A stretch of DNA of 64,000 nt, from contig NZ_CP036261.1 of the NCBI RefSeq assembly GCF_007741475.1, positions 5,705,798 to 5,769,797 of the forward strand. The letters are read 5' to 3'. A model generated the notes under the pieces. It ran no database searches and was not told the DNA's origin. It saw nothing but the letters and a program-made list of their open reading frames with translations. The stretch is from Rosistilla ulvae (lineage in GTDB: Bacteria; Planctomycetota; Planctomycetia; Pirellulales; Pirellulaceae). The first letter of the stretch is position 1. The number at the start of each line of letters is the position of its first letter. Positions 21,931-64,000 of the stretch are shown piece by piece. The translations under genes were made by a program, and so were the position numbers.

Positions 21931-22551
21931 ATGATCACGATTGTCGATTACCAAATGGGCAACCTCCGCAGCGTCAGTAAGGCGATCCAACGCGTGGGGG
22001 AAGAGACGCTGATCACGTCGGACCCGGGCGAGATCGCGTCGGCGGAGAAGTTGATTTTGCCGGGCGTCGGCGGTTTCAAAGATGCCATCGCCGAACTGAA
22101 TCGCCGCGACCTAGCCAACCCAATCCGTGATTTCATCGATTCGGGACTCCCCTTTCTGGGGATCTGCCTGGGGCTGCAGATGCTATTCGACAGCAGCGAA
22201 GAGGGGGGGCAGCACGAGGGACTGGGAATCATTCCCGGAGAAGTCGTTCGCTTTCCCGCAGACCCCGCGTTGAAGGTGCCGCACATGGGCTGGAACCAGG
22301 TCCAGATCACGCAACCGACGCCGCTGATGCAGGGGATCGAGCCGGGGACGCACTTCTACTTCGTTCACTCCTATTACGTCAAGCCGAGCGATCGCAGCGT
22401 CGTCGCGATCGAAGCCGACTACGGGGCTCCTTTCTGTGCCGCGATCTGGCGCGACAATCTGCACGCGACTCAGTTCCATCCCGAAAAGAGCCAAGGCAAC
22501 GGAATGAAGTTGCTGAAGAACTTCGTCTCGCTGGATGCGCCCGGCGAGTGA
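21931..22551 (+). CDS. hisH: Imidazole glycerol phosphate synthase glutaminase subunit HisH
   Basis: A 206-residue class I glutamine amidotransferase of normal length. It starts MITIVDYQMGNLRSV, typical for HisH. The nucleophile Cys is in LGICLGLQMLFDSS. The His and Glu of the triad are in TQFHPEKSQGNG. With HisF it makes imidazole glycerol phosphate and AICAR in histidine synthesis, supplying ammonia from glutamine. No other his gene is adjacent. Its stop codon lies within sequence that matches the start of the downstream 181-bp repeat, which is unusual. Confidence 0.96.
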   Translation: MITIVDYQMGNLRSVSKAIQRVGEETLITSDPGEIASAEKLILPGVGGFKDAIAELNRRDLANPIRDFIDSGLPFLGICLGLQMLFDSSEEGGQHEGLGIIPGEVVRFPADPALKVPHMGWNQVQITQPTPLMQGIEPGTHFYFVHSYYVKPSDRSVVAIEADYGAPFCAAIWRDNLHATQFHPEKSQGNGMKLLKNFVSLDAPGE

Positions 22552-23350
22552 AGTTTGTCGTTCTTCACCCTCCGCCAGACGCAGTTTGAAGGGGAGGGTC
22601 GAACGAGCGCAGCGTTGATCGGGGAGGCTTTGCGTGAGATCGACTTCGGCGTCTTTGACTCACGGACAGCCCTCCCCGAAAAACTCGCTAAACGCTCGTT
22701 TTTCGACCCTCCCGGCGTTGCCGGGCGGGTGAAGTTGCGCGTTCTTCACCCTCCGCCAAACGTAGTTTGAAGGGGAGGGTCGAACGAGCGCAGCGTTGTT
22801 CGGGGAGGCTTTGCGTGAGATCGACTTCGGCGTCTTTGACTCACGGACAGCCCTCCCCGAAAAACTCGCTAAACGCTCGTTTTTCGACCCTCCCGGCGTT
22901 GCCGGGCGGGTGAAGTTGCGCGTTCTTCACCCTCCGCCAAACGTAGTTTGAAGGGGAGGGTCGAACGAGCGCAGCGTTGTTCGGGGAGGCTTTGCGTGAG
23001 ATCGACTTCGGCGTCTTTGACTCACGGACAGCCCTCCCCGAAAAACTTGCTAAACGCTCGTTTTGCGACCCTCCCGGCGTTGCCGGACGGGTGAAGTTGC
23101 GCGTTCTTCACCCTCCCCAAACGTAGTTTGAAGGGGAGGGTCGAACGAGCGCAGCGTTGTTCGGGGAGGCTTTGCGTGAGATCGACTCCGGCGTCTTTGA
23201 CTCACGGACAGCCCTCCCCGAAAAACTTGCTAAACGCTCGTTTTTTGACCCTCCCGGCGTTGCCGGGCGGGTGAAGTTGCGCGTTCTTCACCCTCCGCCA
23301 GACGTAGTTTGAAGCGGAGGGTCGAACGAGCGCAGCGTTGTTCGGGGAGG
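22540..23350. repeat. 181-bp tandem repeat array, first locus
   Basis: Four full copies and a partial fifth of a 181-bp unit. Units begin at the TTCTTCACCC phrase at 22561, 22742, 22923, 23104 and 23284, so the period is 181, 181, 181 and 180. Each unit contains several inverted repeats. Stem 1 is CCCTCC(N)C with its complement around an AAACG(T/C)AGTTT turn. Stem 2 pairs TCGGGGAGG...CGTGAG with CTCACG...CCTCCCCGA. Stem 3 is CCCGGC-GTT-GCCGGG. Because 181 is not a multiple of three, open frames here shift from unit to unit and are not genes. The array begins inside the last codons of hisH. A related array lies at 61.1-61.9 kb. Confidence 0.92.
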
Positions 23351-23445
23351 TGAGTTCGCTGTGCAAAGATGTGTCGGTGCGACCTCGTGCTGTGCCCTCG
23401 TCGGGAAACTCGTTGGCTTTGCTGGGCGAATAAAGGTGGGCTGTC

Positions 23446-26214
23446 TTAATTGCCACCGCGAAAACGTTTCAGTTGTTCGTGCAGGTGGTAGTCGTCGGGA
23501 ACGTCTAACAAACAGTTCATTTCGACTTGGATCGCTTGATCGGTCTCGCCCATCCGAAACAGGACCTCGGCCAACGTATCGCGGTAGGAATACGACTCGG
23601 GAAATTCCGCCACCGCCGACATCGACAGCTCCAATGCGCGATCCAAGTGGCGATTGTGGATCGCGGCAACCCAAGCGATGTTGTTGGCCATGTTGGCGTT
23701 CAACGGAAAGCGAGTCAGGTGTTTGGTTGCCGCAGCAAAGATCTTGTCCAAGGTTTGGTCGGCGAATTGGGTGTGTCCTTGTGCGCGGATTTCCAGCAAT
23801 TGCTGCTCGGCAAAATCAATGTTGGCTGGGCTGGAGCGGAGCGCCATTTTCATTTGCTGTGTCGCCGTCGCGACGTCTCCGCGGTTGAGTGCCTGCCGCG
23901 CGGACGCTTCGTAAGAATCGAAGACGATGTTTTGGTAAGACCCCATGTCTCGCAACATCGTGGGACTCAGCGTCCGGTCCAGCAAGCGTTGGTTCAGCCG
24001 AGCGATCTCCTGTGGCGACTTGTTGTCCTCTAGTCCCAACAGCAATCGGATCGCGCGGTAGTGATACGAACCGGAGGAGTTCTCGGGAGTATCGTGAATG
24101 ACTTTGTTGGCGTATCGGATGGCGCCTGGCAGATCGTCGAACTGACCGAACGCGACCGCGACGTCGAAGTACTGGGCGGCATCCAAAGCTAACAGGTCCA
24201 ACCGATCGACGATCGCTTTCGCTTCGTCCTCTTGTCCGGCTAGCCGTCGCGATTTGGACAAACCGACAAGGGTTTCGGGATGGTTCGGAAAGCGTTCCCA
24301 GAGATTTTGATAAGAGTCCGCCGCGGCCCGCATGTTCCCCAATTGGAACTGCCGGCGTGCGAGTGCGGTCGTCGCTTCATAGTCGTTGTTTTGAGCGGCC
24401 CTTCGATAAAACGTATTGGCCCAGTCGTCGCGAGCATAAGTTTGGAAGAACTCGGCAATTTCTCGGCACAACACGACGTTGAACTGCCCATCGTCGCTGT
24501 CCAATTGATCGTACAACCAGGTTGCCAAACGATTCAGGTCGATACTACGATTCCAGCCCGCGGGCAATTTGCCGTGCGACAGATCGACCAACACGCGAGC
24601 CCGCTGTGTGACCGTCCAGCCAGGTTCCAGTTGGTCTAAAGCATGCCAAAGTTCATTGCCGATCGATGTTCCAAACAACGCTTCGGTCGCTTTCCCATCG
24701 CTCGAAGGCATCCTCAGCAACGGTTCGGCAAGTTCGATCGCAAAGGTTGAGTCGTTGCGTTGCAGCACCGTTTGGATAACTTCCAAACGGTGCATAATCC
24801 CTTCGCCACGCGTCAGCGACGAGACGCGTCGCAGCGCTTGCCGCGCCGCCGGAGCATAGCCTAACTGGTAGGCCAGCGAACAGGCGGCGAGGCAACGTTC
24901 GAAGGCTTGTGGCCGCTGCGTTGGAAGGTCGTCATCCTCCAGGTTTTCCGCCTGCTGTCGCGTTTCATCCGCCATTGCCAACAGGCTCGATTCCAGCGAG
25001 GCGGTATCGCCCCCAAGGATTTCCAATGCGCGCTGGTAATCGGTTTGCTGGACCAACAGTTCGGCCGCTTGAAGCGGCATTCGATCCGATAATACCTCGA
25101 TGGCCCGATCGGTTCGGTCGACCGCGATCAACGTCTCCGCTGCTTCGAAGACTGTGGTTGTGAGATCGCTGCGATACCGTCGGGATTGCGACTGAAGCGT
25201 ATCGATCGCCGTTAGGAAGTCGTCGGACGTAACCAGTTCGACCAACCGATTCACGATCTCGTCGCATTGTTCGGTTTGTTGGCTGCGATACAGTCCAATG
25301 ATCCACAACAACATCGGTTTCGCTTTTTCACGACATCGCATCAAATAGGAGGCAGCGTTTTGAGCGTCATCGAGTTCGATGGGCTCGAGCAATTCCACCG
25401 CATCGGTTTGTTGTCGCGATGATTCGACCAACCCCTTCCAATCCAAAGCGGCAAACTGCAGACGCGACATCAATTCCGGATCGTCCTGGCCGGCCCATTG
25501 GATCGCTTCGTCCTGCATGCCCATCGTCCAACGGATGAAAACTTCGACCTTCCGGCGGCTGGCAGGCTGCATCTCATCGGCGGCTTGCGCGAGCGTGAGG
25601 CAATCGTCGTGGCTGCTGCCCATTTGAAACATCATCTGGCTGCGTCGGAGCGCGACGATCGGCATGTGCGACATCTCGCCTAACAGTTCGATAAACGGTT
25701 CGGACTGGCCTCTTTCCAGAGCGAGGTAGGCGAGGTAAGGGAAATGACGCAACAGATCAATTTGCACACGCTGACGAAACGCCTGGGACTTCGATTGTCG
25801 CAGCGCCACGTTTAACCCGCTCAATTGTTCCAACGCGATCAGGTCGGCAAGGCTGGGCTGATTTTCGTCGTCGGCACCGCGCAACAATCGGGCAACGTTT
25901 GCAGGGGTCTGTTGGCGAATCCCCAGTTTCCATTGCTCCTGAATCCAACGGGCCCGCATGCGCACTTCGGGGTCGTCGCTCTGTTCCGCCGCCAGCACCT
26001 CCGCCTCACTGCCCAGTTCCCACATCTCCTGCATGGCGTTCTGACGGTCGGAGAATTCGCGGCTGGAGAGCCTCTGCTGCAAGCGATCGTCATGGGGCGA
26101 CGGCTGAGGCGATTGCGCCAAGGCGGGCGACCGCATCAGGCAACCGCTCACAAGAACAGCCACCGAGAACCAGCATCGTTTACGTTGCAGCAATCGCAGA
26201 ATCATCGGAGACAT
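23446..26214 (-). CDS. Large secreted TPR-like repeat protein
   Basis: A 922-residue protein with a signal peptide (hydrophobic stretch followed by SPALAQS). The rest is almost entirely alpha-helical. Leu/Ala-rich helix pairs of TPR/HEAT type are clear in the C-terminal half, for example ALARRQFQLGNMRAAADSY and LAEVLFRMGETDQAIQVEM. Two Cys just before the signal cleavage region might make it a lipoprotein, but the lipobox is not convincing. ATG 26214 is taken because the longer frame begins with TTG two codons earlier. It should act as an envelope scaffold or assembly protein; nothing more specific can be read. Confidence 0.8.
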   Translation of the reverse strand: MSPMILRLLQRKRCWFSVAVLVSGCLMRSPALAQSPQPSPHDDRLQQRLSSREFSDRQNAMQEMWELGSEAEVLAAEQSDDPEVRMRARWIQEQWKLGIRQQTPANVARLLRGADDENQPSLADLIALEQLSGLNVALRQSKSQAFRQRVQIDLLRHFPYLAYLALERGQSEPFIELLGEMSHMPIVALRRSQMMFQMGSSHDDCLTLAQAADEMQPASRRKVEVFIRWTMGMQDEAIQWAGQDDPELMSRLQFAALDWKGLVESSRQQTDAVELLEPIELDDAQNAASYLMRCREKAKPMLLWIIGLYRSQQTEQCDEIVNRLVELVTSDDFLTAIDTLQSQSRRYRSDLTTTVFEAAETLIAVDRTDRAIEVLSDRMPLQAAELLVQQTDYQRALEILGGDTASLESSLLAMADETRQQAENLEDDDLPTQRPQAFERCLAACSLAYQLGYAPAARQALRRVSSLTRGEGIMHRLEVIQTVLQRNDSTFAIELAEPLLRMPSSDGKATEALFGTSIGNELWHALDQLEPGWTVTQRARVLVDLSHGKLPAGWNRSIDLNRLATWLYDQLDSDDGQFNVVLCREIAEFFQTYARDDWANTFYRRAAQNNDYEATTALARRQFQLGNMRAAADSYQNLWERFPNHPETLVGLSKSRRLAGQEDEAKAIVDRLDLLALDAAQYFDVAVAFGQFDDLPGAIRYANKVIHDTPENSSGSYHYRAIRLLLGLEDNKSPQEIARLNQRLLDRTLSPTMLRDMGSYQNIVFDSYEASARQALNRGDVATATQQMKMALRSSPANIDFAEQQLLEIRAQGHTQFADQTLDKIFAAATKHLTRFPLNANMANNIAWVAAIHNRHLDRALELSMSAVAEFPESYSYRDTLAEVLFRMGETDQAIQVEMNCLLDVPDDYHLHEQLKRFRGGN

Positions 26215-26361
26215 CACCAAGCGTTTCGATTCAGGGAATCGGGATGCGGAATTTGCGTCTTTCTATCCTAACGCATCGCGGCGGAAACAAAAGTCAAATC
26301 GAATCTGTCCCCAACGCGGCGGTGTCGGGACAGCTGGCAGCCGCCGGAAACGTTTGGGGTG

Positions 26362-48202: not shown

Positions 48203-49026
48203 GGTGTCGGTGCAGGAGATTTCATCTCCATCGCGATCACTTTTTCCTCGGAGCTTGCGGCGATCATGTCCAACAGTTGCTGCAGCTTTCGATGAGTGAC
48301 GTACGTCGTCGTGACAACAAATGCATTCGCCGAACCCGTTTCGGTTTCGATCAGCCGAATTACGCTGGGGCCGCCAAGTTCCTCCCATGTCCCGGGGGTG
48401 ACGATCGCGACAATCATCTCGACCGAATTGCGATCTGCCTGCAGCCCGGTCTCCCCCGCCCAATAGATCCGCGTGATCAGCTGCGATTCGGCGGCCTCCA
48501 CGCTGGTGATGACAAGGTGCTCGTTTGTAATCGTATGCGTCAGGTCGAGGTCACGTAAAATGATCGACAGGGCCCCTTCAAGGCTGGCCTGATCGATCGC
48601 CGTGGTTACCGCAATGTCTGCTGTTAGCCCTAGATCTTCCAGCGCGCGACGATCGATGCGAATCGGGATCCCCGCCTTGTCGGCGAGGATCTTGACAACA
48701 TTTCCAAACGGTTCGTCGTGGAATTTGGCAGGGACGGGGCGGGCCAACGCTTCTTCGATTCTCTCGACCGCCGCAGATCTGCTCCTGGTCTCCGAGTTAT
48801 CGGCCCGCATCGGCTTCGACGCATTTTGCGACCCGGCAGGCGGTTGAGCAACGGTTGTGAAGGGGACTTGTTTCTGAAACGGATCGGGGGCATTCCTCGA
48901 AGGCGGTACCTCAGATGGGCTGGTGCTTGGGCGGATCGCTGGTTTCGATTGAGCCAGGCCGACGTCTGCCAAGGCGGCGATCATAAAGCCGGCGACAGCC
49001 AGTCGGACGATTGATACTGATTTCAT
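48199..49026 (-). CDS. Secreted protein with STN/secretin-like domain
   Basis: A 275-residue exported protein. A signal peptide (about 1-25, ending LAQS) leads into a Pro/Ser-rich linker. The stretch FGNVVKILADKAGIPIRID, followed by LEGALSIILRDLDLTHTI, matches the STN-like N-domain of secretins and TonB receptors. The C-terminal 100 residues have mixed alpha/beta character and no family I can name. No outer-membrane barrel is present, so it is not a secretin itself. It may act as an envelope accessory protein. Confidence 0.78.
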   Translation of the reverse strand: MKSVSIVRLAVAGFMIAALADVGLAQSKPAIRPSTSPSEVPPSRNAPDPFQKQVPFTTVAQPPAGSQNASKPMRADNSETRSRSAAVERIEEALARPVPAKFHDEPFGNVVKILADKAGIPIRIDRRALEDLGLTADIAVTTAIDQASLEGALSIILRDLDLTHTITNEHLVITSVEAAESQLITRIYWAGETGLQADRNSVEMIVAIVTPGTWEELGGPSVIRLIETETGSANAFVVTTTYVTHRKLQQLLDMIAASSEEKVIAMEMKSPAPTP

Positions 49027-49505
49027 AGCCAGGAACTCCTACGTGACAAGGAAGAGGGGGCACCGCCGGAGCAGGTTTGCGTTTAGCTACGGGGTGGGGT
49101 ATCGCTTCCCCCTAACGCGATATGCTAGAGGCTCCGCTAGGCATGTACATCAGCACATGTTCGCCACTCCCGGTACACGCAAAATTCTGAAAATTTTACG
49201 GAATGTGGAAACACTGGGATTCGCCATGCGTTACGCGTTTAGGAGTCCAAGGGATCTTCTTGGTACAGGTAATACAATCGTGATCGTTGGAACAACATTT
49301 GGTTGCCCCCCTCCTTTTGTCAAGGAATGCTATGTATTCCCGAACATCGATCTTTTGTCAACTTAATTTAGATACTTCGAATGGGGGAAACCTGTATCAC
49401 CCTCGTTCATCCCTGTTTTTTCTGCTTCTTTAAACCTATCTGGGCGGCCCGCGAACGGAAGATGATTTTGCGATGTCTCCGCTCCCCCGAATGTGAGGGT
49501 ATTCA
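49027..49505. other. Intergenic region, A/T-rich in its right half
   Basis: A 479-bp divergent promoter region. From about 49180 to 49440 the sequence is clearly richer in A/T than its neighbours, with short stretches such as AAAATTTTACGG. An open frame across 49043-49366 has no ribosome-binding site or domain and is not called. No repeat or RNA is supported. Confidence 0.35.
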
Positions 49506-59540: not shown

Positions 59541-61061
59541 ATGGATGTGGCGAAGCGAATCGGTTCCCAAGATGTCAGTTTGCGTCAGCTGTTCCCCGCA
59601 GCACGCATGATCTCGACCCCCGACATGACCGTGCGACGGTGTTCGGCCGACGCATCGGATTGCTCTCCCGGCGACGTGTTTGTCGCCGGCATCGACGATA
59701 CCCCCGCCGACGAAGCTGCGGCTGAAGCGGTTGCCGGCGGTGCGATCGGAATCATCACCGAACAATTGTTGCCCGTGTCGGTCCCGCAGTGCATCGTCGC
59801 CGACGCACGCCAGGCTTACGCTCATTTGGTTTCTGAACTGGCGGGCAAGCCCTCTCAACAAATGCTCTCGATCGGCGTCGCCGGAATCGATGGCAAGACC
59901 AGCACGACCTTGATGGTTGCCGCGGCGCTGCGGAAGTCGGGGCTGCGAGTTGCTTACAATTGCGACTTGGGACGCAGCGATGGGATCATCCAAGATGTTC
60001 CTCGCCGTCGACTGTCCGACGCGCAAGACCTGACCGATTGGTACGCCGACGCGTCCGACTCGGGATGCCAAGTTGCCGTCGTCGAATTGTCCGAAGCGAT
60101 GCTTCGCAGCCACGCTGCCGATGGCACTTCGTTCGACATCATGATCTTGTCGGGCGATTCGGATCACGCCTACCTGAAGAGCGCTCAAGGCGGTTCGCTG
60201 TTCAACGAAGCGATCAGCCACGTCCGCTCCAAGGGACTGGTGATCCTTAATGAAAGCAACGCCGTCGCGGCTCAGGCTGCTGAATCTTCCGACCTTTCGA
60301 TCCTGACCTACGGCACGTCGCAGGAAGCCGATGTGGTTGGACGGATCATGGAACGGCACGCTGGCGAAACGACGTTTCTGATCACCGCCGGCGATACCAC
60401 CGCTGCGGTTCGATCGCGGATGACGGGCGATTGGATGTTCCATCACCAATTGGCTGCCGCCGCAACGGCACTGGTGATGGATTTCCCGTTGGAGACCGTT
60501 GCCGCTGGGCTATCGGCGATGGAAAAAATTCCTGGCCGGATGCAACGCGTTGCTTCGTACACCGGTCCGCAGATCGTGTTGGACGATGCGGACTGTCCCG
60601 AACGCGTGATGGCGACGATCAACACACTTCGCAAAGAGCTGCCGCGTCGCGGTAAGATCTGGTGCATCGCCGCTTGCGATCATCGTCGGACCGCAACCCA
60701 CGCGGCCAACTTGGGTTACATCACCGAACGATGCAGCGATCATTTGGTGCTGACATCCGGCGTGTCGGGCACCGACGAATTCCTGTCGCTTGTTCACGAG
60801 ATGCTCGACGGCGTCGTCGACCCCGCGAAGCCTCAGTTGATCGCCAATCGTGAAGCTGCCATTCAGTGGACGATCAACAAGGCGACTCCAAACGATCTGG
60901 TCGTGATCCTTGGCGGATGGTGTCCCGATTCGCCGCGAACGATCCGAGTTGCGATTGACGCCGACACGAAACTGGCTGAGCAGGCGCTGGAACGCGTCGA
61001 AGCGATCGACGATTCGGAGCCAGTCATCCTGCCGCACCCTGCCCTCTTGGCATCGATGTAA
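59541..61061 (+). CDS. Mur ligase family protein, MurE-like paralogue
   Basis: A 506-residue protein with the three-domain Mur ligase layout. The N-terminal substrate domain includes SPGDVFVAGIDD. The ATP loop reads GVAGIDGKTSTT, where true MurE has Asn for the Asp before GKT. The C-terminal ligase domain starts around EKIPGRMQRV, a well-conserved Mur phrase. The MurE amino-acid motif DNPR is missing; ACDHRRTATHAA occupies that region. The fold is kept, but the substrate must differ from meso-diaminopimelate, or activity has changed. The start ATG has an AAGGAGG site about 9 nt upstream. A repeat array begins about 35 bp after its stop. Confidence 0.87.
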   Translation: MDVAKRIGSQDVSLRQLFPAARMISTPDMTVRRCSADASDCSPGDVFVAGIDDTPADEAAAEAVAGGAIGIITEQLLPVSVPQCIVADARQAYAHLVSELAGKPSQQMLSIGVAGIDGKTSTTLMVAAALRKSGLRVAYNCDLGRSDGIIQDVPRRRLSDAQDLTDWYADASDSGCQVAVVELSEAMLRSHAADGTSFDIMILSGDSDHAYLKSAQGGSLFNEAISHVRSKGLVILNESNAVAAQAAESSDLSILTYGTSQEADVVGRIMERHAGETTFLITAGDTTAAVRSRMTGDWMFHHQLAAAATALVMDFPLETVAAGLSAMEKIPGRMQRVASYTGPQIVLDDADCPERVMATINTLRKELPRRGKIWCIAACDHRRTATHAANLGYITERCSDHLVLTSGVSGTDEFLSLVHEMLDGVVDPAKPQLIANREAAIQWTINKATPNDLVVILGGWCPDSPRTIRVAIDADTKLAEQALERVEAIDDSEPVILPHPALLASM

Positions 61062-61094
61062 ATCGGCAGTCTTTCATTTGGTCCGCGTAGCATC

Positions 61095-61899
61095 GTCTCG
61101 CGGACGGCCCTCTCCGAAAAAATCGCTCGGCGCTCGGTTTTCGACCCTCCCTGCGTTGCCGGGCGGGTGAAGTAGCGCGTCCTTCACCCTCCACCAAACG
61201 CAGTTTGAGGTGGAGGGTCGAACGAGCGCAGCTACGTTCGGGGAGGCTTTGCGTGAGGTAGGTTTTACTAGTTTGACTCACGGATGGCCCTCCCCGAAAA
61301 ACATCGCTAAACGCTCGTTTTTCGACCCTCCCAGCGTCGCCGGGCGGGTGAAGTTGCACGTCCTTCACCCTCCACCAAACGCAGTTTGAGGTGGAGGGTC
61401 GAACGAGCGCAGCTACGTTCGGGGAGGCTTTGCGTGAGGTAGGTTTTACTAGTTTGACTCACGGATGGCCCTCCCCGAAAAACATCGCTAAACGCTCGTT
61501 TTTCGACCCTCCCAGCGTCGCCGGGCGGGTGAAGTTGCACGTCCTTCACCCTCCACCAAACGCAGTTTGAGGTGGAGGGTCGAACGAGCGTAGCTACGTT
61601 CGGGGAGGCTTTGCGTGAGGTTGTTTTTACGAGTTTGACTCACGGACAGCCCTCCCCGAAAAACATCGCTCGGCGCTCGTTTTCCGACCCTCCCGGCGTT
61701 GCCGGGCGGGTGAAGTAGCGCGTCCTTCACCCTCCACCATACGCAGTTTGAAGTGGAGGGTCGAACGAGCGCAGCTACGTTCGGGGAGGCTTTGCGTGAG
61801 GTAGGTTTTACTAGTTCTCGACTCGCGAACGGCCCTCTCCGAAAAACTCGCTCGGCGCTCGTTTTTCGCCCCTCCCGGCGTTGCCGGGCGGGTGAAGTT
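61095..61899. repeat. 181-bp tandem repeat array, second locus
   Basis: A partial unit followed by four units beginning at the CCTTCACCCT phrase at 61181, 61362, 61543 and 61724. The period is exactly 181. The sequence is clearly related to the array at 22.5-23.35 kb but differs in fixed positions, for example CCCTCCACC/GGTGGAGGG in stem 1 and TAGGTTTTACTAGTTTGA in the centre. The stems found in the first array are all present. The last unit has diverged most (CTCGCGAACGGCCCTCTCCG). The array lies between the MurE-like gene and the UvrA gene. Open frames here are artefacts of the repeat. Confidence 0.92.
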
Positions 61900-62138
61900 G
61901 GAATCATTGGCTCCGTTGACGCGGGTGGCTTTGGGGCGTGTGTCGACGGGCGCGGGCGTAAGTCGGTTTCCACGCATGCATCGTGTTTTGCTCGGTAACC
62001 GCGGCTAGAAACCAACGATTCAGCGATGGAATTGCACGACCCCCGCGATTTTCATCCCGCTCGTTGAACGCTACAGTGGAAGGTTCATCTCTCTTTAATT
62101 GACAAGCCTCTTCGAATCTTGAACCACTGGACGCGGAA
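61900..62138. other. Leader region before the UvrA gene
   Basis: A 239-bp stretch between the repeat array and the UvrA start. It should hold the uvrA promoter. No SOS/LexA-type palindrome, repeat or small gene is recognisable. Confidence 0.35.
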
Positions 62139-64000
62139 TTGAATCAACGGAGTATTCGGCTGCGCGGAGTCCGCGTTCACAACTTGCGCGATGTCGACGT
62201 CGACGTCCCTCATCATCAGCTGGTCGTGTTTTGTGGCGTCAGCGGCAGCGGCAAGACTAGCTTGGCCCTCGATACGCTTTATGCCGAGGGGCAGCGACGC
62301 TACATCGAGAGCTTCTCGGCGTATACGCGTCAGTTCCTGCAGCGGTTGGATCGACCCGATTGCGAATCGATCGAAGGCATTCCTCCGGCGATCGCCGTCA
62401 CTCGCGGTGGGGCTTCGCGTTCCAACCGCAGCACGATCGGAACGGCTACTGAAACTGCCGACTACCTGCGGTTGCTGTTCGCTAAGGTAGCCGATCTGAC
62501 TTGTCTGAACTGTGGCCAACCGGTTCGCAGCGACGATCCCCAATCGGCGGCGAACCAGTTGGCGGCGACCGAGCCGGCGGCCCGCGCGATGCTCGGTTTT
62601 CCATTGCTGTTGGAATCGAAGCTGCATGCGGTCGATGAGCTCTCCTATCTGCAGCAGCAGGGCTTCCTGCGACTGATCGTCGGCGATCGGACGTTCAATC
62701 TCGGCGATGAATCGCGCGGCGAATTGGCCGAGGCGATCGGCGATGGAGCCGAAGCGATCGTGATCGTCGATCGCTTGAAAACGTCGGACGCAGCCGGACG
62801 TTTGACCGAATCGATGGAGACGGCGTTTGCCGAAGGGGCCGGCCAAGCGGTGGCGCTGATCGAATCCGCTGAGGGCGAGACAGTTGTCGACGGCAAGTCG
62901 TGGACGGTGATGAAGTGGAGTCGCCAGCGGAAGTGTGAAACGTGCCAGATCACCTATCCCGATCCCGAGCCGCGGTTGTTCAATTTCAATAACCCTTTGG
63001 GAGCGTGTCCGGCGTGCGAAGGGTTCGGCGATATCGTCGATGTCGATATGGATTTGGTCGTTCCCGATCGGTCGAAGACGCTCCGCGAAGGGGCGATCCA
63101 ACCGTGGAACACGCCTTCGTATCAGCATGAATTGGAAGAGTTGTTGGCGTTGGCCGATGATTACGATCTGCCGGTCGACGTTCCCTTTTCGCGGCTGACC
63201 AAAAAACAGCGGCGGCTGATCGACGAAGGAGTTCCCGAGCGGGAGTTCGGTGGGCTGAATGGCTTCTTCGCCTGGTTGGAACGCAAAAAGTACAAGATGC
63301 ATATCCGCGTCTTCTTGAGCCGTTGGCGAAGCTATCGCCGGTGCACGACTTGCAACGGACAGCGACTGAAGGATGAAGTGCTTGCCTATCGCGTCGGCGG
63401 CAAGAACATCGCCCAGGTCTGCGCGATGGAAGTCGATGCGATCGCGCAGTTCTTCGCCGACGTGAAGCTTGCCGATCGGGAGGCGGAGATCGCGGACGAT
63501 GTCTTGCACCAGGTCCGCAATCGGCTGGGCTATCTGCAATCGGTCGGGCTGGGCTATCTGCAGCTGGATCGCACGCTGCGAACGCTCTCCGGCGGCGAAG
63601 CCCAACGCGTCGCGTTGACCAGCGCTCTTGGATCCAGCTTGGTCAACATGCTTTACGTTCTGGATGAACCGACGGCGGGACTGCATCCGGCCGACGTTCC
63701 CAGCTTGATTGAATCGATCGTGCGGCTGCGCGATCGAGGCAACACCGTGGCGGTCGTCGAACATAATGAAGCGGTCATTGCGGCGGCGGATCGGTTGATC
63801 GAAGTCGGCCCAGGGGCGGGAGCTTCCGGTGGCGAGATCGTCTTCGAGGGGACCGCCGACGAGATGGTCGAGACGCAGGGAAGCCTGACGGGCGATTACC
63901 TGTCGGGCCGCCGAGGGATGTTGTCGTTGCAACGCGATCGGCTGCAGCCGCGAGGGTGGCTGAAACTGACGGGGGCCAGCGGAAACAATCTGCAATCGAT
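62139..64000 (+). CDS. uvrA: UvrA excinuclease subunit A, 3' end outside the window
   Basis: A frame open to the right edge encodes the first 620 or so residues of UvrA. Visible parts are Walker A GVSGSGKTSLALDTLYAEG, then YIESFSAYTRQFL and SIEGIPPAIAV. The zinc module is CETCQ and CPACEG. RCTTCNGQRLKDEVL follows, then signature LSGGEAQRVALTSALG and Walker B LYVLDEPTAGLHP. GWLKLTGASGNNLQS marks the start of the second ATPase half, just before the edge. UvrA recognises DNA damage with UvrB. The start is uncertain; TTG 62139 is the best in-frame choice after a stop at 62100-62102. Thr in GKTS and Ala in PTAGLH differ from the usual Ser and Ile, so a paralogue is possible. Confidence 0.92.
   Translation, partial: MNQRSIRLRGVRVHNLRDVDVDVPHHQLVVFCGVSGSGKTSLALDTLYAEGQRRYIESFSAYTRQFLQRLDRPDCESIEGIPPAIAVTRGGASRSNRSTIGTATETADYLRLLFAKVADLTCLNCGQPVRSDDPQSAANQLAATEPAARAMLGFPLLLESKLHAVDELSYLQQQGFLRLIVGDRTFNLGDESRGELAEAIGDGAEAIVIVDRLKTSDAAGRLTESMETAFAEGAGQAVALIESAEGETVVDGKSWTVMKWSRQRKCETCQITYPDPEPRLFNFNNPLGACPACEGFGDIVDVDMDLVVPDRSKTLREGAIQPWNTPSYQHELEELLALADDYDLPVDVPFSRLTKKQRRLIDEGVPEREFGGLNGFFAWLERKKYKMHIRVFLSRWRSYRRCTTCNGQRLKDEVLAYRVGGKNIAQVCAMEVDAIAQFFADVKLADREAEIADDVLHQVRNRLGYLQSVGLGYLQLDRTLRTLSGGEAQRVALTSALGSSLVNMLYVLDEPTAGLHPADVPSLIESIVRLRDRGNTVAVVEHNEAVIAAADRLIEVGPGAGASGGEIVFEGTADEMVETQGSLTGDYLSGRRGMLSLQRDRLQPRGWLKLTGASGNNLQS

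Follow-up and report, generated by a model that had tools for sequence, protein, structure and literature searches.

The arrays and their neighbouring genes

The window, by which we mean the whole stretch of 64,000 nucleotides of the Rosistilla ulvae genome analysed here, contains two tandem arrays of a 181-bp unit. Both had been claimed in an initial annotation of the sequence, and TRF recovers them at both sites. Array 1 (22539..23350, unstranded) comprises 4.5 units (TRF period 181, 4.5 copies, 96% matches, score 1505) and lies directly 3' of a plus-strand gene with a Pfam GATase domain (21931..22551), which we take to be a hisH-like glutamine amidotransferase gene. The TGA stop codon of this gene (22549-22551) falls within the first repeat copy. 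On the other side of the array a gene encoding a TPR-repeat protein (23446..26220; ORF and Pfam TPR) is located on the minus strand and is convergent with the hisH-like gene. Array 2 (61088..61900, unstranded; TRF period 181 over 61097-61900, 4.4 copies, 93% matches, score 1352) comes after a gene encoding a Mur-ligase domain (Pfam) that ends at 61061; its right neighbour is uncertain, having been called co-directional where the long ORF at 62085-63995 runs on the minus strand. Four ORFs overlap the arrays, and a search for a protein hidden in them gave no Pfam match at E<=0.01.

A doublet of two REP-like elements

A profile search splits the 181-bp unit into two related REP-like elements, A and B. 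The A core is 36 nt long and reads GGGAGGGT-CGAAC..GC-GNA-GC..GTTCG-GGGAGG; on its 5' side it is accompanied by a further hairpin, hairpin 1, in which an outer stem (CCCTCC../..GGAGGG) encloses an inner GNA-capped hairpin. The B core is 45 nt long and reads GGGAGGGT-CGAAAAAC-GA-GC-GTTTA-GC-GA-GTTTTTCG-GGGAGGGC. In both arrays of the window A lies on the plus and B on the minus strand. Array 1 has the order A+ B- A+ B- A+ B- A+ B- A+, with A cores at 22592..22627, 22773..22808, 22954..22989, 23134..23169 and, at the array end, 23316..23350, and B cores at 22669..22713 (read on the minus strand as GGGAGGGT-CGAAAAAC..GTTTTTCG-GGGAGGGC), 22850..22894, 23031..23075 and 23211..23255. Array 2 has the order B- A+ B- A+ B- A+ B- A+ B-, with B cores at 61107..61151, 61287..61332, 61468..61513, 61649..61694 and 61832..61876, and A cores at 61212..61246, 61393..61427, 61574..61608 and 61755..61789. 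The period is fixed inside the window, as had been stated; elsewhere in the genome the gaps between cores show that longer units occur as well.

In the loci fetched from G000, G001, G002 and G014 the core profile gave 446 matches at E<=1, the weak ones among them possibly spurious, and these were classed as 173 A, 214 B and 59 other cores that were left out. Element order was counted in 89 arrays from three genomes, with cores at E<=1e-3. Neighbouring cores lie on opposite strands in 312 of 320 pairs, 177 being tail-to-tail, 135 head-to-head and eight on the same strand. The tail-to-tail gap is 35-50 nt in 173 of the 177 cases (median 41), the median head-to-head gap is 61 nt, and the two-element arrays are tail-to-tail with a gap below 60 nt in 21 of 23 cases; ten of the 89 arrays contain a single element. 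Judging from these orientations and gaps and from the two-element arrays, the basic unit is A-> <-B, a doublet that can also be seen by eye in genomes G102 and G049. Some arrays in G014 take a different form with B cores in direct repeats; one locus of this genome, which belongs to another genus, has direct tandem B-type cores in repeats of ~260 bp without A cores (L237).

The family thus consists of high-copy, extragenic, imperfect palindromes (446 core matches; one of 89 arrays wholly intragenic) that alternate in orientation within clusters (312/320), and its commonest small unit is an inverted doublet of fixed spacing. Its anatomy is that of a REPIN/BIME family. The GTAG/GTGG or CGTC tag is absent from the hairpin foot, which is GGGAGGGT in both A and B.

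The variable pair of hairpin 1

The argument of the initial annotation for selection on a folded structure was built on the seventh stem pair of hairpin 1, which in the first copy lies within 22568..22598 on the plus strand. Its reading of the letters was accurate: G-G in the copies at 22561, 22742 and 22923, C-G at 23104 (the hairpin 1 of the fourth A core), G-C at 23284 (that of the fifth) and A-T in the 61-kb copies, beginning with the first A core of array 2. The C-G copy has a left arm that is one base shorter (CCCTCCCC-AAACG versus CCCTCCGCC-AAACG), so that its pair 7 is an indel state rather than a plain substitution; C-G is at the same time the commonest state of the family (140/173 A copies). 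The A-T pair is common to flank-matched arrays in both sister species (L093, L117) and is for that reason best read as one old change. In three further copies (L041:4230-4301, L065:4162-4233 and L101:2717-2788) hairpin 1 lacks the inner hairpin, and the outer stem CCCTCCC/GGGAGGG is retained around a 3-nt loop.

Dispersal and history of the family

A genome-wide search for further copies had been proposed, and it found them. With one unit as BLAST query the 7.48-Mb single-contig genome returned 89 matches, some of them the same copies read again on the other strand, which we grouped into about 36 loci. The unit matches four of 30 genomes including this one and both congeners, which contain many more copies. 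A covariance model built for the B core from one row per locus (61 rows out of the 214 B-class cores) matches 13 of 119 sampled genomes of the taxonomic family at E<=1e-4, again including this genome and both congeners. Units resemble each other more within arrays (mean identity 0.90, 198 pairs) than between arrays of one genome (0.71, 5149 pairs), and arrays with matched flanks differ between the three species by whole A-B units, with for example 1/3/3 and 3/7/1 pairs.

According to the calls of a home-made codon scorer, 33 of the 89 arrays lie between convergent, 47 between co-directional and eight between divergent genes, with one wholly inside a called gene; one further array overlaps a called gene (L044). 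The 219 other gaps (307 counted minus 88 array gaps, assuming one array per gap) are 41 convergent, 119 co-directional and 59 divergent. Convergent gaps are accordingly enriched for arrays (33/88 versus 41/219, Fisher p 0.001) and divergent gaps depleted (8/88 versus 59/219, p 0.0004).

Among the 39 arrays of this genome, 27 by our count could be matched through one flank or both to an array locus fetched from a congener; as the fetched congener loci were array-bearing ones only, the remaining 12 are not thereby shown to be missing from the congeners. One of these 12, the solo B element of L058, was considered as an empty-site case and rejected, since it has a full-length match in both congeners. 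Array 1 itself is absent after the hisH-like gene of the sister species G001, where the gene end retains GCCGGGCGGGTGA, a 13-nt piece of the repeat; its loss is therefore at least as likely as its gain. The two flanks of the arrays in L051 and L052 lie far apart in G001 (L161, L164, L087, L088), with elements or arrays at the break points, which suggests that these arrays may have been sites of rearrangement or recombination with one another. No excision or new insertion of the family was seen among the loci compared, and since many positions are common to two or three species, movement of the elements is old.

Folding and covariation

The unit folds far better than its composition predicts. 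Relative to shuffled sequences a single unit scores z -6.4 as DNA and z -6.5 and -7.9 as RNA of either strand, and in each of the three tests 0 of 200 shuffles folded as well as the real unit, which excludes chance for the fold. In the minimum-energy folds the right arm of hairpin 1 is wholly or partly drawn into a longer stem that pairs A with B, so that hairpin 1 and the long hairpin of the doublet compete with each other. The loop of the A core is G-N-A in 169 of 173 copies, with A (110), C (46), G (9) or T (4) at the middle position; the inner loop of hairpin 1 is also G-N-A with any base in the middle in the 116 of 173 copies that could be parsed, although the parsing pattern itself required G-N-A. 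In DNA, GNA loops closed by G-C pairs are reported to have extraordinary stability (PMC4686876).

In 61 B cores 98.5% of the stem cells are paired, and double-sided changes number 18, compared with 3.8 in shuffled and 0-5 in slid controls. A multi-genus alignment, built from 93 matches at 38 chosen loci and comprising 71 distinct rows (B for the most part, with A in the minority), has 97.4% of its stem cells paired and 45 double-sided changes, versus 10 in shuffled and 0-5 in slid controls, and since it was fitted to the model these values lean towards structure. One pair in this alignment takes all four Watson-Crick types, and the stems vary between genera while the pairing is retained.

Covariation was scored per column pair against a self-written tree-aware null that approximates R-scape. 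For element A (151 rows, distinct within each locus, from 173 copies) the top three of 1540 column pairs are all stem pairs, with E values of 4.0, 5.8 for pair 7, and 9.7. For B (147 rows from 214 cores, with odd lengths dropped) the top pair is a stem pair with E = 2.1, followed by loop columns, and in the multi-genus B set (53 rows, after removal of A-type and gappy rows from the 71) stem pairs make up four of the top five among 990, with a best E of 0.21. No single stem pair reached E<0.05 under this null in the 151 A, 147 B or 53 multi-genus rows. Judged by the refuting condition that the initial annotation had set, no one pair thus attains significance, even with stem pairs at the head of the ranking. 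Selection on folding finds support in the pattern as a whole and not in the single site from which it had been argued. That the arrays are a structured, repeat-derived element is supported.

Strand preference of the stems

Non-Watson-Crick pairs were counted on the strand of the element itself, in cells that are not independent of one another given the relatedness of the rows. B stems contain 73 G.T against six A.C cells in 147 rows, and 22 G.T against six A.C among branch events that start from a Watson-Crick pair. The slid control for B gives 23 G.T and 93 A.C cells, and 15 events of each kind. Hairpin 1 of A has 39 G.T versus nine A.C cells (19 versus eight events), but this asymmetry is not specific because its slid control is skewed as well (15 versus three events). 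The variable pair in hairpin 2 of A comes to 35 G.T, 18 A.C, 46 other mismatches and 52 Watson-Crick pairs, and with so many other mismatches it is poorly paired.

The initial annotation had left the choice between a folded RNA and a hairpin in single-stranded DNA undecided. Single-stranded DNA is the likelier of the two, since A and B face opposite ways and no one transcript can have both in the preferred sense, as single-stranded DNA can. The letters of the elements look as if they were retained for a fold of single-stranded DNA more than for that of a single RNA.

The search for a mobilising protein

An unseen mobilising protein had also been proposed. This is plausible, but no gene was found beside a copy that could be its cognate among the Y1 loci scanned. 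Matches to Y1_Tnp (PF01797) were sought in this genome, in a set of 30 genomes that includes it and in nine more. This genome contains seven, and the counts for G000, G001, G002 and G014 are 7, 5, 5 and 8; at these 25 matches no cognate RAYT flanked by the family was found. The core profile gave no family match in 35 Y1 loci at E<=0.1, only six weak matches (best E 1.4) in 20 larger Y1 loci at E<=5, and none at E<=0.01 in 30 Y1 loci from the nine further genomes; for genomes other than those four, the scan covered the Y1 loci that were retrieved, a part of the total. The sole adjacency concerns the Y1 gene at 48354 in G088 (C8), which has a B-like core, at 49045, some 350 nt upstream of it, and since the profile missed this core in a scanned locus where the covariance model found it, the absence reported here is incomplete. 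The G088 gene itself is closely flanked on both sides by a different repeat, as judged by eye.

A second Y1-like group, mostly open frames of 350-400 aa, falls outside the PF01797 matches of this genome. It was traced from a broken gene in G102 (L225:1969-3061) and has copies in G000, G001, G002 and G014 (members L250-L261); at E<=1 the 12 of its 30 listed loci that were searched gave two weak matches, the best with E 0.38. Other REP-like repeats lie alongside the Y1 genes at L009, L010, L011 and L012 (partly judged by eye), and the flanks of the remaining three Y1 genes of this genome were checked for the present family only. On these grounds the family looks orphaned in the genomes examined, with no transposase gene found that is flanked by it. 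A linked RAYT gene, a feature of REPINs, was looked for without success, and we therefore call the family REPIN-like.

Origin of the arrays and alternative explanations

The anatomy, the dispersal, the matching positions in the sister species and the changes in size by whole units are all best accommodated by one reading: the arrays are probably tandem REPIN clusters that would have been spread in trans by an HUH/Y1 protein and afterwards resized by recombination or slippage. A and B, inverted tail-to-tail with ~41 nt between their cores, would form large hairpins whenever the DNA is single-stranded. Each hairpin is, or was, presumably recognised as single-stranded DNA by a RAYT-type HUH/Y1 transposase acting in trans, which would have seeded copies between genes in an ancestor. 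Unequal recombination or replication slippage may later have lengthened and shortened the arrays in steps of A-B units, and the same processes would have homogenised the copies within each array.

An explanation that dispenses with selection altogether is template switching or gene conversion between the arms of the inverted repeats and between tandem copies, which would spread changes to both sides of a stem. Homogenisation within arrays (0.90 versus 0.71) is what it predicts, pair 7 in its A-T form probably represents one event given that flank-matched arrays have it in common, and covariation is not significant pair by pair (pair 7 with E 5.8 under the tree-aware null). Such copying should treat both strands alike, yet G.T far exceeds A.C in the B stems; the loops keep the form G-N-A with every base represented at N, and the stems vary between genera with their pairing retained. 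We consider this explanation unlikely; it is strongest at hairpin 1 of A, the site of pair 7, since the strand asymmetry lacks specificity there. It is very unlikely that transcription through the array instead yields a structured non-coding RNA, or a hairpin of the 3'-UTR with a role in protecting mRNA ends or in termination. The strong RNA folds on both strands and the frequent position between convergent genes are in keeping with this idea, and effects of some REPs on termination and on mRNA half-life have been reported (PMC8049555). Against it, the window contains no Rfam match at gathering scores, and the region of array 1 (22400-23560) has no intrinsic-terminator-like site where shuffled sequences have 2.5 on average. 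With A and B on opposite strands and the G.T bias of B, any one transcript would hold one of the elements in its disfavoured sense. The GNA triloop is furthermore a DNA-type turn, in contrast with RNA. A single RNA spanning the unit was thus weakened as a candidate by the opposite-strand layout, the missing Rfam match and the lack of terminator-like sites at array 1.

Mobilisation as a MITE-type element by a DDE transposase is highly improbable for the family; the observations in its favour come from G102. In that genome a ~296-bp element bounded by 24-bp terminal inverted repeats encloses a B-> <-A doublet; a 23-nt stretch from the end of these repeats is matched exactly 15 times there, and a 9-bp target duplication was read by eye in five of eight copies. 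Allowing up to three mismatches, this terminal repeat is present neither in this genome nor in G057 or G125, two members of the genus of G102. It looks as though in one species a MITE had picked up a REPIN, and the case suggests that REPINs can travel by means of another transposition system. The ~296-bp element occurs in G102 as dispersed, near-identical copies (L225, L227, L228, L229, L230). A decidedly unlikely variant is that the family is a REPIN lineage without any transposase, under selection for single-stranded DNA hairpins that a host protein recognises, and in another genus a passenger of an unrelated DDE-type MITE; if true, arrays of GNA-capped hairpins would have been kept at the same sites between genes across species.

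Read as tandem REPIN clusters, the arrays carry the REPIN/BIME anatomy into a planctomycete-related genus, where they are long and built on a doublet of two element types that is unusually clean. The variable number of units at matching sites makes the family a good natural system for studying how REPINs persist without a linked RAYT, and the GNA caps together with the strand bias offer a direct test of DNA versus RNA function.

Comparison with known repeat families

Measured against the enterobacterial REP types, the present elements are longer, of two types and in a planctomycete host, which sets them apart from BIMEs. In common with BIMEs they are REPs of alternating orientation that form arrays between genes (PMC2817692, PMC3733652). 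They share with the GTAG- and CGTC-tagged REPs the short palindromes and small loops, and both of these super-families are reported from Planctomycetes among other phyla (PMC3733652); here the foot is GGGAGGGT and the tag is absent. Since the same source mentions untagged REP-like families as needing study, the tag does not define all REP-like families. Class 3 Y1 HUH proteins, found mainly in Planctomycetes, are associated with atypical flanking hairpins with a CnGA foot (PMC6006769). The present hairpins resemble these in host phylum, high copy number and unusual form, and differ from them in the foot. Related tandem arrays across one genome also recall dispersed prokaryotic satellites, which are reported as rare (PMC6749651); unlike those, the arrays here are explained by a REP doublet unit. 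In the literature covered on planctomycete REPs, intergenic repeats and RAYT/REPINs, in which subscription papers were mostly not included, no description of the A/B family was found.

A close parallel is provided by the REPINs of Pseudomonas fluorescens SBW25, for which tandem clusters and compensatory changes are documented (PMC3116915). In the present family stem length and loop are not the same in A as in B, an extra 5' hairpin accompanies each element and no RAYT gene was found alongside, all of which is unlike SBW25. Both systems have in common an inverted doublet of REPs as the unit, extragenic location and the capacity to form hairpins in single-stranded DNA, as well as tandem clusters that include flanking sequence and compensatory changes in their stems (PMC3116915).
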